This document shows positions 15,328-29,307 of a DNA stretch of 37,942 nt, one piece after another (positions within the stretch are counted from its first letter, which is position 1; the number at the start of each line of letters is the position of its first letter). Source of the stretch: Ignavibacteriales bacterium (GTDB lineage: Bacteria; Bacteroidota; Ignavibacteria; UBA10030; UBA8401). The notes under the pieces were generated by a model. It saw nothing but the letters and a program-made list of their open reading frames with translations. It ran no database searches and was not told where the DNA came from. The stretch is taken from contig JACPGG010000071.1 of assembly GCA_016182545.1 (NCBI GenBank), positions 1-37,942 on the forward strand, written 5' to 3'. Position numbers and translations under genes: made by a program.

Positions 15328-16505
15328 ATGAACACTGAATATAAGGAACCGGGACCCGTTCTGGATCATGAAAATCCGTTCGAATCCATGATGCAGCGTT
15401 TTGACAAAGCTGCTGAAATCTTGGGGATGGAAGATGGCGTTTATCAATATCTAAAGACACCCGTAAAACAAGTGACTGTTTCCATTCCGATACAAATGGA
15501 TAACGGCAAAGTGGAAATATTTGAAGGTCACCGCGTTATTCATAATGACATTCTCGGTCCGTCCAAAGGAGGCATTCGATATGCGCCTGACGTCAACATC
15601 GACGAAGTAAAAGCGCTTGCCGCTTGGATGACATGGAAATGTGCCTTGCTCAATGTTCCGTTTGGCGGAGCAAAGGGTGGAGTCAAATGTGATCCGTCAA
15701 AACTGACCAATGTGGAATTGGAAAAAATAACACGACGATACACTGCAAATATGATGGAAGTATTCGGGGACGACAAAGATATTCCGGCACCCGATATGAA
15801 CACAAACGAACAGACAATGGCGTGGATCATGGACACTTATTCCATGCACATGCGTAAAACAGTGAGCGGCGTTGTGACCGGGAAACCGTTGCTCATCGGG
15901 GGTTCGATCGGAAGACGCGAAGCGACCGGAAGAGGGGTCATGATCGCGAGCAAGGATGTAAAATTGTTGGGATCAGTGATGTCACCGGCGGATATCATAA
16001 CAAAAGAGGGATCGACATTCAAAAAGCGTTGGAATATGTGAAACAGAATAAAACGCTGAACGGATTCACGGGAGCTGAGAAAGTCACACAATCCGAATTG
16101 CTTGAACTGGAATGCGATGTGCTCGTTCCGGCTGCTAAAGAGGATCAGATCACACATAAGAATGCCGGAAAGATCAAAGCAAAGATCATCGCAGAAGGTG
16201 CAAACGGACCGACGACTGCGAAGGCAGATCCAATTCTCAATGAACGCGGGATCGTCGTCATTCCGGATATTCTCGCAAACGCCGGCGGAGTGACTGTTTC
16301 ATATTTTGAATGGGTACAAAATCGCGTCGGTTATTACTGGTCGCTTGACAGAGTCAATCGCCGTCTTGAGCGGATGATGAAAGCGTCGTTTGACAATGTC
16401 TATGACACTGCATCGAAGCACAAAGTTGCACTTCGTATCGGCGCGTATATTGTTGCGATCGACAAGGTTGCTAAGACATTAAAGATCCGCGGGATTTACG
16501 CTTGA
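15328..16505 (+). pseudogene. Glutamate dehydrogenase (Glu/Leu/Phe/Val family), interrupted by internal deletion plus frameshift near 15950-15965
   Basis: N part: [46 protein letters not shown] in frame 1; C part: [31 protein letters not shown]...EGANGPTT...DILANAGGVTVSYFEWVQN in frame 3. The GxGNxG segment normally between them is absent. Confidence 0.85.
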
Positions 16506-19386: not shown

Positions 19387-21581
19387 GTGCCGACCGTTCG
19401 AGGAGAATTTCGTTTATTTGATACTGCATCAATCTTTCTTTTTGCGATGGTGATGCAATCGGTGAGCTTTTCTCAACTTCGTTCGATCCCTACCCTCACG
19501 CACACTCAAGAATTTACTCTCCGGTCAAAGATCCAGTTGCCGCTTTTAATCCATTCATCCAGCCAACAGTCCAAGGACATTGCATATTTCGATCCACAGG
19601 AGCACAACATTTCCATTCTACGATATGAAGCGAATGGAATATTTGAATATCTGAAACAAGTGGATACGATCAATGTCGTTTCATCAATGTCGTTTGGGAA
19701 CATTAACAACGACGGGATTGATGATATTGTAGTTGTGCAGAGGGAGAGAAATCGAGTCATCCTCTTTGTCAGCGATAAAATCACTGCATCATATTCGAAG
19801 CAATACTTTTCAGTCGGTTTTTATCCCGAACAGGCGCTGATACAGGATATCTCAGGCGATGGAATTGCCGATATTATCGTATTTGGAAAATTATCTTCCG
19901 GGGTTACCGTTATCAGGGGTAAGCGAGATTATACATTCGGGGAAACAAAAACAATATTTAGTGATTTTCCGGTCAGTTCGCTTACAATTATCCGTTTAAA
20001 CGGCGACAATATCCCGGACGTTGTCGTTCGAAACTGGCTAAGCAATGAAGACATATTTTATTTTGGTCTTGGAAAGATGCAATTCTCGGAACAATCTGCT
20101 TTGTCATACGGTGCTGATTCCACATCAGCCTTGTTTGAAGATGTGAATGACGATGGCATCACCGATGCGATTGTCACTTCAACGCAATATCAATCTTGGG
20201 GAATTTTACACGCGAACAAAGTATCTCCTTGTCAGGAACCGCGGCTTCAATGATTCGAACATCATTTACCGGGGATGGCAGACCGGATATCTTATTAATC
20301 AGCAACGGTATGCCCCAATTTTCACTGATGCTAAACAGGGGGAATGGGTCATTTTATGAAGAGATTGTTTTTGGAATTCCTTATGCGCATTACAGCATAG
20401 CGAGCTCAGATGTTAACAGTGATGGCTTGACAGATATTATCTGTTTCGATTCGGACTCAGCACGGTACACAATATTTTGGCACCAGCAAACGATCTATAG
20501 CGATTCTTTGCCGGCAACATTTGCTGTCGGGCGTAATCCCAATTATCTCTTTGTAACAGATATCAATGAGGATGGATTTGATGACCTCTTTGTGAGTAAC
20601 GGGGGTTCAAATACCGTATCCATTTTGTTAGGATCAAAGAGATCCCTCGGCAGTCAGATGTCATTGGAAACTCCGGATGGACCAACTTCTGTCACGCTGT
20701 ACAATAAAACGGATTCATCCTTAACGCTTATTACATCTCATGGAGATGATTTAAAAATAGGGATTACATCGATAGTCTATCCGTCGAATCAAGCCATGTC
20801 ATTTCTCGGTGACATTGAATCGTACACAATCGCGCTGGCAGGAAAACCGTCATTTATACTCCCCGATATTTCATTACGAAATTCGCCGCTTTCATTATAT
20901 GTATTTTTAAAAGGACAGACCAATTCGATCGTATTCTATCAACAGTTACAATCGACACAGTTTATTGCAAAAAGTCTAACACCGCTGATCCCTTCGCGAA
21001 TCATGTTCTCAACAATTAGCGATCTGAATTCAGACGGATATACCGATCTTGTTTATATGTACAATGACAACCGAACGAACAAAGATCTTATCGGAGCAAC
21101 CTTAAATGATGCAAGAGGGGAGTTCACCGGAAGAACGTACACCGTAACTTTACCGGATACCGGGCATCGACGATCATTTCTGTGGGTTGAAGATTTGAAT
21201 TCGGACCAACAAAAAGATTATATTTTTTATTCAGATCCTGAAAAAATTTTATACTCGATCATCGCAAAGAGAGAAGGAGAATTTACACAACTAGTGGCGA
21301 TTGCCGACAATGTCTCTCTCTCACATCAAAATCAAATCAAGTTCTATGATTATGATAATGATGGCGTTGAAGATATCATTTATTCAGATTCAGAGTCGTC
21401 GTGGGTAAATCTCCTTCGAAGCAAAGGGAATGGAACATTCTTTGCTGCGCAGAGACTTTTTCAACTGCCAAATGGATCGCTATTCCAGTGCGGAGATTTT
21501 GACGGCGATGGTACCATGGATTTTGTCTTTCTGCATACTCAGAAAAATACGATTGAAGTGCGATATGGCAAAACACAATAA
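19387..21581 (+). pseudogene. FG-GAP/VCBS-repeat secreted protein, reading frame broken near 20190-20200
   Basis: Repeats NINNDGIDD, DISGDGIADI, DVNDDGITD in frame 1 until about 20190; SFTGDGRPD, DVNSDGLTD, DINEDGFDD, DLNSDGYTD, DYDNDGVED, DFDGDGTMD in frame 3 afterwards; signal peptide-like N-terminus. Confidence 0.75.
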
Positions 21582-23163
21582 TATAACCATTCTTCTTGTT
21601 GTCGCGCTGACATCACTTGCATTTTCCCAAGACGTGGGGGGAAAGTGTGAAACGTGGAGAGGCTTTGAAAGGTTGAAGAATAAAATGCAGCAGAAGCAGG
21701 AACTTCAATCTGTTACAAGGCCGATATCTCACCGGAGTATAGTGTCTCCGAGCGGCCGTTTTCGCATTCATTATGATACAACAGGTATGCATGAACCGAC
21801 CATGGTCACAACCAATGGGAATCCGATTCCGAACTCCTACCGAGAATATGTTGACTCCGTTGCAGGGATCTTTGATGAGGTATTCCAAATTGAGATAGAA
21901 ATTTATGGTTACCCCGTACCCGCATCCGACGGCGCGAGTGGAGGAGGAAGCGAGTATGATGTGTATATTGAAAATCTTGGAACGGGAAATTATGGGTACA
22001 CCGAATGGGATGAGGAACAGAACATTACACCCGGAAAAACAAATCCTCAATTTCCATGTTTTATTGTTATTGATAATAATTTTGAATCAGGATACTACAC
22101 GACAGGTTTGAATGCAGTAAGGGTTACCGCAGCTCACGAATTTCACCATATGATCGAAGTGAGTACATCCGGCGTTTGGTATGATGATTTTTATTTTTAT
22201 GAAATGTGTGCCACCGGGATCGAATCCACCGTGTATCCTGAAATACGTGATTATATCCAATATATAAAAACATATTATAATAACACCACGCAGTGGCCAT
22301 TATTCACTCAGGTGTCGAAGTCGGGTTATGAGCGGGGGATATTTCCAAAATTCTTGATGGAGAGATTCGGACCCGGAATTATGAATACGATTTGGAATGA
22401 AGTAAAAAATCATCGCCCGGTTCAAGCGACACAAAATGCACTCCAAATCTTTTCAACATCAATTGAAAGAGAGTTCTCCGAATTTACGATCTGGAATTAT
22501 TACACGAACTATCGGACAGATTCGACGGGATATTTCAAGGATGCAAAATTATTTCCGCTAATTAAACCGTTTGCTTTCGACTCCATTTCAACATCACAAA
22601 CGTTGTTCCAGAGCGGTATAAAAAGTTTTACGATACACTTGAACAGACTTCTTTCAAAACAAGCTACAGTTGATACGGTCGATTTTCTAATCGCAAATAC
22701 AAATTTCAATGACGCCTTGAATTCAACGAACCAGACATTCTTTTATGACATTTCGGTTTCACCGTCATCGATCCAGGGGCATCAGCCGATTTCAAATAAT
22801 GTCTTCGTAAAATTTTCCGTACAGGATATGACGAATTGGAAATTCACGGCAATCGCCAAAGGAGGAATTGTACAAAAAAATGTTTCTGCAGTTTTTCCCA
22901 ATCCGTTTGATCCAACTGCGTCGGCATTGTTAATTCCTTTGGGAAACTTTCTTCCTGACAACAGAAATTCTCTTCAGATTTATTCTGTCTCGATGGATTT
23001 GATCTATTCCAAACAGGCAAAATACGCATCGTTTTCTGGCATACAATATGCAAGATGGAACGGCAGAGACGATAAAGGTAACATAGTCCCAACAGGAATT
23101 TATCTGTATGTGCTCGCTCGAGACGGTGAATATCTCAAAGGAAAATTCGCGGTAATCCGATGA
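21565..23163 (+). CDS. Secreted zinc metalloprotease-like protein (MXAN_6640-like) with C-terminal T9SS-type sorting domain
   Basis: Signal peptide MAKHNNITILLVVALTSLAFS; HEFHH zinc motif; C-terminus VFPNPFDPT...LQIYSVSM...ARWNGRDDKGNIVPTGIYLYVLARDGEYLKGKFAVIR. Start at 21565 preferred over ORF-track 21430. Confidence 0.8.
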   Translation: MAKHNNITILLVVALTSLAFSQDVGGKCETWRGFERLKNKMQQKQELQSVTRPISHRSIVSPSGRFRIHYDTTGMHEPTMVTTNGNPIPNSYREYVDSVAGIFDEVFQIEIEIYGYPVPASDGASGGGSEYDVYIENLGTGNYGYTEWDEEQNITPGKTNPQFPCFIVIDNNFESGYYTTGLNAVRVTAAHEFHHMIEVSTSGVWYDDFYFYEMCATGIESTVYPEIRDYIQYIKTYYNNTTQWPLFTQVSKSGYERGIFPKFLMERFGPGIMNTIWNEVKNHRPVQATQNALQIFSTSIEREFSEFTIWNYYTNYRTDSTGYFKDAKLFPLIKPFAFDSISTSQTLFQSGIKSFTIHLNRLLSKQATVDTVDFLIANTNFNDALNSTNQTFFYDISVSPSSIQGHQPISNNVFVKFSVQDMTNWKFTAIAKGGIVQKNVSAVFPNPFDPTASALLIPLGNFLPDNRNSLQIYSVSMDLIYSKQAKYASFSGIQYARWNGRDDKGNIVPTGIYLYVLARDGEYLKGKFAVIR

Positions 23164-23717
23164 AAAAAATGACTTTAAAGTCCGATTATGTTACTAAAGC
23201 GTATTCACGTAAGACAATTTTTCGGGATGTCAGTTTTTCTGTGAACGAAGGATCGGCATTTGCAATTACAGGAAAGAATGGGTCAGGAAAGTCAACTTTG
23301 ATAAAAATTTTGTGCGGGTTGCTGACTCCCACCAAAGGATCTGTTTTACTGAGTGTTAATGAAAAAACGATTACACCGGAAAATTACTACCCGCATATTG
23401 GACTCGTATCGCCGTACTTGAATTTGTATGAAGAATTCACAGGCGAAGAGAACTTACTATTGATCAAGAAGATCCGCGGCTTGAACTCCGGGTCCGATGC
23501 CCGAATTAACGAATTGTTGAACGAATTCAATATTTATGATCACAGAAAAAAAGAAGTTCGGTTTTATTCATCAGGAATGAAGCAACGTTTAAAATATTGC
23601 GCTGCACTCCTGCACAAACCTGTGATCCTGTATCTCGACGAACCATCTGCAAATTTGGATGAAATGGGCATTGGAATAGTCAGGGATGCGATGAATTCAG
23701 AACCCGCTACGCGTTAA
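23160..23717 (+). pseudogene. ccmA: CcmA-like heme exporter ATPase, 3'-truncated
   Basis: Walker A GKNGSGKST, signature YSSGMKQRLK, Walker B VILYLDEPSANLDE; ends at IVRDAM then reads out of frame into ccmB sequence, lacking the H-loop and C-terminus. Confidence 0.82.
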
Positions 23718-24313
23718 ATGCCCTTTTGATGTTTGTTGTAACGACTCTTTCCATGGTGATGTTTTCATTGGGAAGCAACACTGTTCCATATGAAATTTTG
23801 AGCGGAATGCTCTGGATCGTGATTTTTTTCAGTGCAATGTCCGGACTCTCGCGCACCTTCGTAACAGAGGAGGAACGAGGAACCTCGCTGACATTACGCC
23901 TGTTAACAAAGGCAGCAAATGTTTACATAGGAAAGCTGATATACAATACGGTGTTGATTACGTCACTTTCTGTTTTCATTGCGCTCCTGTATCAACTGGT
24001 GATTGACGATTTTCAGATTCAAACGCAGTCTATCTTTTGGATGACTATTCTATTGGGAAGTATCGGATTAGCGGCAGCATCGACGATCCTTGCAGCGATC
24101 ATTGCGAAGGCAAATACAAAAGGGACTCTGTTTCCCGTTCTGGCTTTCCCGATTCTGCTTCCATTGCTGTTGGAATGTATCAAAACCACTGTGTTAGCGG
24201 TCGAAGGGGCATTCTTTGTAGAGGCAATAAAAGATTTTCAAATCTTGATTTCATTCATCATTGTTATGATCGCAGCTTCGTTGATGGTCTTCGAATTTGT
24301 CTGGAACGATTAG
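23693..24313 (+). pseudogene. ccmB: CcmB-like heme exporter permease, 5'-truncated
   Basis: Frame from 23693 reads EFRTRYALNALLMFVVTTLSMVMFSLG...EEERGTSLTLRLL; the normal start and first residues are missing and no upstream start exists in frame. Confidence 0.82.
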
Positions 24314-24314
24314 T

Positions 24315-25019
24315 ATGAACCCACTGATTAAAATTTTCATTTCGCTTGTCATCACCGCCGTGATCATTCTCGGCATATCCATTCCAACGGTACACGGTGC
24401 TCAGGGATTTTTTCAATTCCCATTTATTCCCGGATTGGAAGAAAAAGCGCGGAACATTTTCTTCCATGTTCCGATGGCATGGACATCTGTTCTTGCATTC
24501 TTCATGGCGCTCTATTATGGAATCCAGTACTTGCGGACAAAGAATCAGGATTATGATCTTCGCTCGGTTTCGTCCGCAGGATTGGGATTGATGTTCTGCA
24601 TTCTCGCAACAGTGACCGGTTCCATCTGGGCGAAATTCAATTGGGGATCATTTTGGAATTGGGACCCGAGAGAAACTTCGATTTTTATCCTGCTCTTGAT
24701 CTACGGGGCATATTTTGTTCTTCGATCCGCTGTCGAAGATGATGAGAAGAGAGCAACGCTCTCTTCGGTTTATTCGATTATGGCAGGTGTTACAGTTCCG
24801 TTCTTTATCTTTGTGATGCCGCGTATTATGTCTGGACTTCATCCGGGATCCTTGGGCGACGAACAGGGGAAAGGTCCCGTGCTTGAATTAAAGATGTCGC
24901 CAAATATGCTGGCGATCTTTTTCGTTTCTCTGATCGGCTTCACTATGTTGTATTACTGGATGTATTCACTCCGCATCCGCACGGCACGGGTTGAAAAACA
25001 ACTTCAAACTATTGAGTAG
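24315..25019 (+). CDS. ccmC: Cytochrome c biogenesis protein CcmC (heme transporter)
   Basis: FHVPMAWTSVLAFFMALYYG, WGSFWNWDPRETSIFILLLIY WWD-type motif, LHPGS; ATG at 24315. Confidence 0.93.
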   Translation: MNPLIKIFISLVITAVIILGISIPTVHGAQGFFQFPFIPGLEEKARNIFFHVPMAWTSVLAFFMALYYGIQYLRTKNQDYDLRSVSSAGLGLMFCILATVTGSIWAKFNWGSFWNWDPRETSIFILLLIYGAYFVLRSAVEDDEKRATLSSVYSIMAGVTVPFFIFVMPRIMSGLHPGSLGDEQGKGPVLELKMSPNMLAIFFVSLIGFTMLYYWMYSLRIRTARVEKQLQTIE

Positions 25020-25023
25020 CTCT

Positions 25024-25158
25024 ATGGAACAATTTCTACACGACAATCAACTCTACATCGTCCTTATCCTCGTACTTACGATATGGTTCGGATTTCTTTT
25101 TTACATGTTTCGTCTCGATTCCAAAATTAAAAAGTTGGAAGAGAGTTTAAGAAAATAG
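25024..25158 (+). CDS. CcmD-like small membrane protein (44 aa)
   Basis: MEQFLHDNQLYIVLILVLTIWFGFLFYMFRLDSKIKKLEESLRK between ccmC and ccmE; single TM followed by basic/acidic helix; not in supplied ORF track. Confidence 0.75.
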   Translation: MEQFLHDNQLYIVLILVLTIWFGFLFYMFRLDSKIKKLEESLRK

Positions 25159-25168
25159 GAGAACAACA

Positions 25169-25558
25169 ATGAATGCAAAAATAATCAGCGGAATGGTCAT
25201 TATTGTCGCGGCATTGATCTTCGGTGCAATGACCTTTATCGACAGCAATGTTGAATACACAGATTTTGCGAAGGCACAGGCAGTCGCAAAGAAAGTTCAG
25301 GTCAAAGGGAAATGGATTGCTGAAAAAGAGACACGGTTCGATGCTTCAACAACACAATTCACGTTTTACATGGTTGACGATAATAACAAAGAGTGCAAAG
25401 TTGTCCTTGACGGCGGCAAACCGAACAACTTTGAGATCGCAACCGAAATAGTAGCCAAAGGCCGATTCAAAGATGGATATTTTCATGCGAACGAAGTTCT
25501 CACGAAATGCCCCTCCAAGTATGAAGGCGACGGAACTGCCGTAAAGAAGAGTTTATAA
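25169..25558 (+). CDS. ccmE: Cytochrome c maturation protein CcmE (heme chaperone), CxxxY variant
   Basis: N-terminal TM, OB-fold-like FYMVDDNNKECKVVLDGGKPNNFEIATEIVAKGRF, then FHANEVLTKCPSKYE; position between ccmD and ccmF. Confidence 0.88.
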   Translation: MNAKIISGMVIIVAALIFGAMTFIDSNVEYTDFAKAQAVAKKVQVKGKWIAEKETRFDASTTQFTFYMVDDNNKECKVVLDGGKPNNFEIATEIVAKGRFKDGYFHANEVLTKCPSKYEGDGTAVKKSL

Positions 25559-25560
25559 TT

Positions 25561-27885
25561 ATGCTAGGTGCCATTTTAGTCAAAATTACATTTGCTGCCG
25601 CAATCGCAGCAACAATTCTCTATGTTCTTCAACATCGCAAAGCAAGCGATGACATTTTACGGCTTGCCCGATTGTTCTATTTCGGATCGGTTGCCGGAAT
25701 TTTGTCGGTTGCAGGATTGCTTCTGTACTACATTCTGACACATCAATTCCATTATTATTACGTATGGAGCTACAGTTCGACTGATCTGCCGTTGTCGCTG
25801 CTGATTTCAACATTGTACGCAGGTCAGGAGGGGAGCTTCCTGCTATGGGCACTCTTCACAGGGATCATCGGCGTATTTCTTCTACAATACTCTTCGAAGA
25901 AGGGATACGAACCGGAACTTATGTCGATCTACACGGGAATCTTTACGATGCTTATACTGATGCTGGTCGTAAAGAATCCCTTCAAGTTCATTTGGGAACA
26001 ATTCCCGGATGAACTGCTGAAGGTCGGACTTGCACCAACAGATGGAACGAATTTTATGTGGGTCGATCAGGCGCGCGGTCTTTGGGCTCAAATTCCCGTT
26101 GAAGGAAAAGGATTGAATGCTCTTCTGCAAAATTATTGGATGGTGATCCATCCGCCGATTCTGTTCATTGGATTTACTTCAATGTCCATTCCTTTCGCTT
26201 ACGCTGTTGCCGGATTGTTAAAAAGAGATTATGTGAGTTGGATAAGAATTGCAACGCCATGGACGGCATTCGGCTCACTCGCACTCGGAACGGGAATTAT
26301 CCTTGGCGGCTACTGGGCATATGAAACACTCGGCTGGGGCGGATATTGGGGATGGGATCCGGTTGAAAATTCGTCACTCGTGCCGTGGCTCGTTTGTGTC
26401 GCATCAATACATACTATGCTCGCGCAACGGAAGAACGGTAGTTACATCAAAACAAACTTCATCTTGAGCATGTTCTGCTTCATTCTGGTGTTATATTCGA
26501 CATTCCTTACTCGAAGTGGTGTCCTCGGTGAAACATCGGTGCATTCGTTCGTCGACCCGGGAATGTGGGTCTATTGGCTGCTCTTGATGGTGATCGGAAT
26601 ATTTGTGGCAATCGGTTTCGGTCTATTGGCGAAACGATGGAAAGATATACCCGTAGTTCCTGTTGAACATTCATTCATCTCTCGTGAGTTTGCACTGTTC
26701 CTCGGTGCTTCCGCGTTGGTGTTTGCTTCGGTCTTTATTCTGATCGGAACGTCATCGCCCATCATTACAAATATTCTTAAAGGGAAAACGTCGGCAGTTG
26801 ACCCGGCATTTTACGTGACGACGACATTGCCACTCGGAGTTGCGATCGCGCTTCTCTCGGGACTCGGACAAATTTTGTGGTGGAAAAATTCAAAGTCTGA
26901 TGCATTGTTGAAACAATTAACCGTTCCTGCAATTCTTGCTTTGATATTTACAGTGGTTACATTTTTCTTCGGTGCCACTCATGTTTCAATGATTATCTTT
27001 ATTTTTGCTTCGGCATTTGCTCTCTTTACAAATATTCTTGTCGGCTACCGAATCATACAAGGAAACCCTAAAATGGCAGGCGGTGCGATCACGCATGTCG
27101 GTATTGCGTTGATGTTCCTCGGTTTTGTTTCATCGGCAAAATATGACGATGTGAAGACCGTGAATCTCGAGCAAGGAAAAGAGGTTGATGCTCTCGGATA
27201 TAAACTGAAGTATGTAGGGTATCAGCCGATGGAGCGTGGAAGATTTGCTTTTAATGTTGAAGTGGAAAAAGACGGTGAAAAATTCATAGTATCACCCGTT
27301 ATGTTCAAAGAAAGTGAAAACGGCTCTTTGATCCGAAATCCGGATATCGTAAATTTGTTCACAAAGGATTTCTATGTGTCGCCGCTATCTCTGGAAGCGG
27401 GTGAACAACAACAATCTGCCAACGAGATCACGATCGGAGAAATGGAGCCATTGGATATAGCCGGTATGTCAATCCGGTATCTCGGATATGAATTCACGCA
27501 ATCAAAGGAAAAAGGTAATTACCTTATTGCAAAGCTTGAGGTGAGCAAAAACGGCAAAAAGGAAATCGTCAAACCGACAATGAGCAATATGACAGGTGAC
27601 ATTACATTTGAACCTGCAAAGCATTCGTCCGGAATAAGTTTTACCATCAAAGCAATGAATCCGACCAAAGAGAAAGCACAATCAAGCATTACTCTTACGG
27701 TTGACGGAATTCATGCCCATAGCGATGTTAAAGAGTCCAAAATGGATACACTTGTCGTTGAGGCGAGCGTGAAACCGTTCATCAATCTCGTGTGGATCGG
27801 GACGTTCTCACTCATCATTGGATTTTTGATTACCATCTACCGTCGTGCGCAAGAAGCGCTGCGGAATGAAGCGTGGAAACAGTAG
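25561..27885 (+). CDS. ccmF: Heme lyase CcmF
   Basis: Multi-TM; WALFTGIIG, MVIHPPILFIGF, GGYWAYETLGWGGYWGWDPVENSSLVPWL, TFLTRSGVLGETSVHSF. Confidence 0.95.
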   Translation: MLGAILVKITFAAAIAATILYVLQHRKASDDILRLARLFYFGSVAGILSVAGLLLYYILTHQFHYYYVWSYSSTDLPLSLLISTLYAGQEGSFLLWALFTGIIGVFLLQYSSKKGYEPELMSIYTGIFTMLILMLVVKNPFKFIWEQFPDELLKVGLAPTDGTNFMWVDQARGLWAQIPVEGKGLNALLQNYWMVIHPPILFIGFTSMSIPFAYAVAGLLKRDYVSWIRIATPWTAFGSLALGTGIILGGYWAYETLGWGGYWGWDPVENSSLVPWLVCVASIHTMLAQRKNGSYIKTNFILSMFCFILVLYSTFLTRSGVLGETSVHSFVDPGMWVYWLLLMVIGIFVAIGFGLLAKRWKDIPVVPVEHSFISREFALFLGASALVFASVFILIGTSSPIITNILKGKTSAVDPAFYVTTTLPLGVAIALLSGLGQILWWKNSKSDALLKQLTVPAILALIFTVVTFFFGATHVSMIIFIFASAFALFTNILVGYRIIQGNPKMAGGAITHVGIALMFLGFVSSAKYDDVKTVNLEQGKEVDALGYKLKYVGYQPMERGRFAFNVEVEKDGEKFIVSPVMFKESENGSLIRNPDIVNLFTKDFYVSPLSLEAGEQQQSANEITIGEMEPLDIAGMSIRYLGYEFTQSKEKGNYLIAKLEVSKNGKKEIVKPTMSNMTGDITFEPAKHSSGISFTIKAMNPTKEKAQSSITLTVDGIHAHSDVKESKMDTLVVEASVKPFINLVWIGTFSLIIGFLITIYRRAQEALRNEAWKQ

Positions 27886-28590: not shown

Positions 28591-29307
28591 CTACATCATA
28601 AAAAAAACAGATTGAACGCCGAGCGGCTCAATGCTGTAAAACGGTTCGCCATATTCAACATTGATCAGGCTTCCATAGTGCCTGTCACGGGCGTAAATTG
28701 ATTCGAGAAATAATTTTGAAGAGAGCAACGTTTCCCGCTCTTTGCTTTTCGGATTATAGAACTGTGAAGTGAAGGCAAGCAGCGATTCTTTCTTCCTTTC
28801 ATATATGCCCGAAACATCAACGATGAACGACGGCTGAAACTCATACTTCTGCATATAGTGGAAATATTTCTTTGGTCTGAACGGAGATTGCTTCTTTCCC
28901 AGATATGTTGTCGGGATTTTTTCCAATCCGGAATAGAACCACGCCTCTTTTACAAGATGATGAGCATGCACATGGTCCGGATGTCGTTCCTGCCAATGAG
29001 GAATAAAAAGAATATCTGGCTGGAAATGGCGTATGATCTGCATAACCTTTACGACATTCTTTTTTGTTACTTCGATCCCCCCGTCGGGAATCTTTAGATT
29101 CACTCGTGCTGAGAATCCGAGAATTTTCGCAGCCGCTTCTGCTTCATTTCGACGGATCTCACGGGTGCCACGGGTTCCGAGTTCACCTTCGGTAAGATCA
29201 AGCACGCCGACTTTGTATTTTTGCTGTACAAGTTTGGCAACCGTCGCAGCACATGAAAGTTCAATGTCATCAGGGTGTGCGGCAACCGCAAGAACGTCAA
29301 GTTTCAT
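28591..29307 (-). CDS. bshB1: N-acetylglucosaminyl-L-malate deacetylase (bacillithiol biosynthesis, BshB1 type)
   Basis: AHPDDIELSCAAT, DLTEGELGTRGTREIRRNEAEAAAKILG, ERHPDHVHAHHLVKEAWFYSGLEK. Confidence 0.9.
   Translation of the reverse strand: MKLDVLAVAAHPDDIELSCAATVAKLVQQKYKVGVLDLTEGELGTRGTREIRRNEAEAAAKILGFSARVNLKIPDGGIEVTKKNVVKVMQIIRHFQPDILFIPHWQERHPDHVHAHHLVKEAWFYSGLEKIPTTYLGKKQSPFRPKKYFHYMQKYEFQPSFIVDVSGIYERKKESLLAFTSQFYNPKSKERETLLSSKLFLESIYARDRHYGSLINVEYGEPFYSIEPLGVQSVFFMM

Follow-up and report, generated by a model that had tools for sequence, protein, structure and literature searches.

In Escherichia coli, the switch I region of CcmA reads GIVLTTHQP and the N-terminus of CcmB is an amphipathic elbow helix (PMC10457321). 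Errors in assembly have been documented as a major cause of apparent pseudogenes in bacteria (Cooley and Wright 2024, PMC11017572). Here we analyzed a window of 37,942 nucleotides (contig JACPGG010000071.1, positions 1 to 37,942) in which ccmA and ccmB are joined out of frame. Based on sequence comparison, we assign a probability of about 0.95 to the reading that this join arose as one of many assembly artefacts and is not a real feature of the organism. This reading is preferred because equivalent frame-breaking deletions occur in other genes of the contig and in rpoB and rpoC. Features of the locus and the broken genes found elsewhere are collected in the table.

Table. Features of the window and broken genes elsewhere in its own draft genome (G000). 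Positions are those of the window unless a contig is given.
Feature	Position	Strand	Basis or observation
Glutamate dehydrogenase gene, broken at 15945-15951	15328..16505	+	NCBIfam NF040817/NF041398; relatives' ORFs compared with the window
Secreted FG-GAP/VCBS-like protein gene, broken near 20196-20226	19579..21581	+	A single ORF in six relatives
ccmA, residues 1-178, matching relatives in frame	23160..23693	+	Relatives' alignment; NCBIfam TIGR01189 over residues 11-179
Out-of-frame 7-residue tail NSEPATR and stop, ccmA frame	23694..23717	+	Frame compared with relatives' alignment
Putative false junction, about 175 nt of relatives' DNA absent	23690..23700	+	Comparison with relatives
ccmB, EFRTRYALNALL to stop; lacks the start codon and the N-terminal elbow-helix segment	23693..24313	+	PF03379 over profile 13-203
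ccmC, intact	24315..25019	+	TIGR01191
Small single-TM ORF at ccmD position (ccmD-like)	25024..25158	+	Position and sequence only
ccmE, intact	25169..25558	+	Open frame
ccmF/nrfE family heme lyase, intact	25561..27885	+	TIGR00353
rpoB, broken	G000:C141:8196-10983 (L231, L232)		Profile positions 1129-1160 missing
rpoC, broken	G000:C141:4007-8069 (L228-L230)		Profile positions 78-93 missing
pnp	G000		-31 nt; 80/84% identity on two sides
SprA-like protein	G000		-98 nt; frame-break test
Small unknown gene	G000		-29 nt; frame-break test
Subtilisin-like protein	G000		-94 nt; frame-break test
Methylmalonyl-CoA mutase N-terminal-domain protein	G000		-73 nt; 84/71% identity on two sides

As assembled, the ccmA frame (23160-23717) encodes 185 amino acids, and the codon for residue 178 ends at 23693. 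Up to this residue, the protein is 51-71% identical to its relatives within the family and keeps the Walker A (GKNGSGKST), signature (SSGMKQ) and Walker B (LYLDEP) motifs. The ccmB frame, which differs from that of ccmA, is open from 23666 to 24313. Its 206 residues align in full with relatives from the codon at 23693 onward, where EFRTRYALNALL corresponds to the conserved EFRTRY motif, and they are 82.5% identical to CcmB of a genome from the same genus (G001). The first in-frame start-type codons left in ccmB are TTG at 23726 and ATG at 23729. CcmB matches PF03379 above the cut-off, and TIGR01189 and TIGR01190 were matched below their whole-protein cut-offs, which for TIGR01189 is expected because CcmA is truncated. 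The break is not a chance ORF effect, because in nearly all relatives the two halves match one and the same syntenic gene pair.

Between CcmA residue 178 and the EFRT codon, a median of 175 nt (147-207 nt) is missing relative to 24 related loci, a comparison that sets apart four further loci with longer spacers, and the missing stretch is likewise 175 nt relative to G001. The absent segment holds the switch I/H-loop and C-terminus of CcmA (...ATNDKDDL... in relatives), the intergenic stretch, and the start of CcmB with its elbow helix, so that the given sequence contains neither a complete CcmA nor a CcmB with its N-terminus. An earlier note on this DNA had described an out-of-frame join created by a deletion of these same parts and had proposed alignment with the ccmAB genes of a relative. 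That description agrees with the alignment, in which both halves fall on the relatives' gene pair and the relatives keep the missing part. Its estimate of a 120-170 nt loss was correct as to the deletion and slightly low as to its size. The H-loop is indeed gone, although the histidine implied by that name is replaced in this clade by asparagine. This switch I/H-loop position reads (A/G/T)(T/S)N in 57 of 57 occurrences, counted over two overlapping sets of loci (L003-L031 and L047-L094).

We compared the locus across a panel of 41 genomes, comprising the window's own draft genome (G000) and 40 relatives. A CcmB match was found in 37 of the 41, and both CcmA and CcmB are complete in the fetched loci that carry the two genes on one contig. 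The same holds in a second collection of 48 loci, with the exception of those cut by a contig end, those without a detectable adjacent ccmA, and one locus (L087). None of the loci compared belongs to a relative that naturally lacks the CcmA C-terminus and CcmB N-terminus, a possibility that the earlier note had raised. The exceptional locus (L087:1761-2321, JACQYX010000179.1) lies in another damaged draft, where CcmA is complete and unrelated sequence stands in place of the first ~56 residues of CcmB, possibly through an error similar to that in our genome. In G039 (L018, G039:C10), CcmA and CcmB form a natural in-frame fusion that has a long linker and measures 539 amino acids when counted from the CcmA start that was matched; it retains the ATND loop and both the C-terminus of CcmA and the N-terminus of CcmB.

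This natural fusion is the one precedent for supposing that the window encodes a reduced exporter, in which a short CcmA and a start-less CcmB would be fused by frameshifting or re-initiation, for example at the TTG or ATG noted above. Such an exporter would have lost exactly the parts that the G039 protein keeps and that no locus in the clade naturally lacks. Moreover, the two frames differ, and both the switch I region and the elbow helix known from the E. coli complex (PMC10457321) are lost with the deletion. We regard this possibility as close to negligible.

The two genes also differ in their nearest relatives. Over window positions 21409-23714, CcmA and the upstream secreted protein resemble another genus (G011/G018/G021) more closely than G001, and the G+C content of sampled stretches is 0.607 in G001, far above 0.455. 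A chimeric contig, in which the DNA of two organisms meets at ccmA/ccmB, would account for CcmA being nearest to another genus (71%) and CcmB to G001 (83%). Yet the upstream genes at 13-18 kb once more have G001 as their nearest relative, the whole region keeps its gene order, and there is no step in G+C at the junction. A chimera is therefore hardly credible, though somewhat more likely than a reduced exporter.

By comparing the relatives' ORFs with the window, we detected two further breaks in the 38-kb contig. The glutamate dehydrogenase gene has an out-of-frame loss of ~100 nt (-103; ~32 residues) that includes the FGNVGS nucleotide-binding motif, and the sequences on the two sides of the break are 94% and 92% identical to the sister gene in G001. 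The gene for the FG-GAP/VCBS-like protein is also broken out of frame, with about 25-28 nt gone. For a region that is otherwise healthy, three frame-breaking lesions within 38 kb are too many.

The draft genome (205 contigs, 87.85% complete) was then compared with its sister by applying the same frame-break test in both directions, to 0.94 Mb of G000 and 0.89 Mb of G001. Twelve of 106 gene places were flagged in G000, and inspection resolved these into six true out-of-frame deletions (the glutamate dehydrogenase gene and the five genes given with a net loss in the table), one N run, and five antisense or intergenic matches. The last five (L179, L189, two in L201, and window position 29072) were dropped as antisense/intergenic ORF matches or gene borders. 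The single flag among 154 gene places in G001 was a -1 nt difference at an overlapping gene border. True breaks thus number 6 of 106 in G000, with net deletions of 29-103 nt, against 0 of 154 in G001. By our own arithmetic, which treats gene places as independent, the chance of all six breaks landing in G000 is ~0.004.

The confirmed lesions are all mid-sized deletions. In the genes inspected we saw neither 1-2-nt shifts nor nonsense changes, the marks of a pseudogene that decays naturally. No in-frame deletions of at least 6 amino acids were found between G000 and G001 in 81 alignments, and therefore no excess of in-frame losses is added to the case for an artefact. No common motif or long repeat at the junctions was evident by eye, and the GAATTC at 23695 is absent from the other junctions.

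Short N runs are a further feature of this assembly, with 21 (4-81 nt) in the G000 sample and none in the G001 sample. Their presence in G000 implies that gaps were bridged by scaffolding. Two N gaps could be measured and both are overlong (36 N for about 7 nt and 76 N for about 14 nt), and gap lengths in this assembly are unreliable. The 36-N gap (L122:9575-9610, G000:C173) lies inside a conserved membrane protein gene, where comparison with the relative points to a loss of only ~7 bases. Simple abutting of contig ends with underestimated gaps is not supported, since both measurable gaps are overestimated.

Five essential genes were checked in G000. Although dnaE, ileS and secA each occupy one frame, rpoB and rpoC are broken. 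RpoB is unbroken relative to a solved bacterial RpoB up to ...YNGRTGERFDQEVTVG, and the match picks up again at GGQRFGEMEVWA in a different frame; its start is also lost, with the contig ending at 10993. The RpoC frame breaks after CDRCGVEVT and resumes in another frame. Both genes are single-copy, as only the C141 copy was found in a search of the organism's own genome. RNA polymerase beta and beta' are indispensable to any living cell. Because no cell exists without them, the assembly must be at fault for the rpoB and rpoC deletions, and the ccmAB deletion belongs to the same class.

It can be argued that short-read assemblers usually produce sequence that is found in the reads, and hence that a real deletion in part of the sampled population was taken up by the assembler. 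This would have to hold simultaneously for rpoB, rpoC, pnp, the glutamate dehydrogenase gene and others, with carriers that are dead or rare, which makes it extremely unlikely. An assembly artefact remains the preferred reading, and its expected signs were found: the lesion is absent from close relatives, lesions of the same type occur genome-wide including in essential genes, and their rate is far above that in the separately assembled sister genome. In this reading, G000 contains many internal deletions of ~25-175 nt whose flanks were joined without the intervening DNA, and one such false deletion runs from late ccmA into early ccmB. We infer that the missing segment is present in the true genome. 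Most likely, ccmA and ccmB are ordinary, separate and functional genes in the organism and belong to a normal System I operon, ccmABC(D)EF.

The remainder of the system was examined for what it implies about the cell. Membership of CcmA and CcmB in System I is supported by family matches and by the adjacent ccmC, ccmE and ccmF genes; these and the ccmD-like ORF are open, as the earlier note had stated. The remaining ccmB stretch is likewise open, with no decay seen. Neither a second ccmB copy nor the missing CcmA tail was found elsewhere in the genome, which leaves no candidate for the alternative ccmAB copy that the note had suggested seeking. Its other suggestion, a search for c-type cytochromes, yielded five intact Cytochrom_C-family genes and clustered CxxCH-type codings (for example, eight at C26:26567-28045 and eight at C42:1819-3009). 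ResB, of System II, was looked for in the genome and was not found. Because multihaem c-type cytochromes are kept, ResB is absent and ccmB is single, the cell should need a working CcmAB. Open ccmC, ccmE and ccmF, an undecayed ccmB and retained cytochromes would all be expected if CcmAB works in the cell.

These findings bear directly on the possibility that a real deletion became fixed in the lineage, knocking out both proteins so that cytochrome c maturation was lost or rerouted. In favor of this, the assembled sequence does contain the join, and both flanks are syntenic. Nevertheless, the same lesions occur in rpoB, rpoC and five other conserved genes, and the dependent genes are neither lost nor decayed, no System II was found, and ccmB has not decayed further. 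We consider a fixed deletion very unlikely. It is still less probable that the deletion is real and that heme export for many c-type cytochromes proceeds without normal CcmAB. The claim that the heme exporter is disabled in the organism is not sustained, given that lesions of this type in the other contig genes and in rpoB and rpoC point to assembly error.

Any single broken or “fused” gene in G000 should be treated as suspect until its relatives have been checked, since even rpoB and rpoC carry deletions in the range of ~25-175 nt. Should many conserved genes be affected, broken genes rather than missing DNA may in part explain the completeness estimate of 87.85%.

The pattern in G000 resembles the assembly-induced false pseudogenes of bacterial draft genomes described in PMC11017572, with frame-broken genes, intact relatives and lesions concentrated in one assembly. 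Frameshifts and internal stops in general are named there, and the lesions seen here are mid-sized internal deletions of ~25-175 nt. The locus is like E. coli CcmABCD (PMC10457321, PMC9616876) in its gene order, in its ABC ATPase motifs up to Walker B, in the CcmB family match, and in the ccmC, ccmE and ccmF genes downstream. It differs in that E. coli CcmA has TTHQ at switch I (PMC10457321), whereas a clade-wide Asn replaces the switch histidine here (ATND). As assembled, it also departs from the E. coli complex in having a CcmA without switch I/H-loop and C-terminus and a CcmB without its elbow helix.
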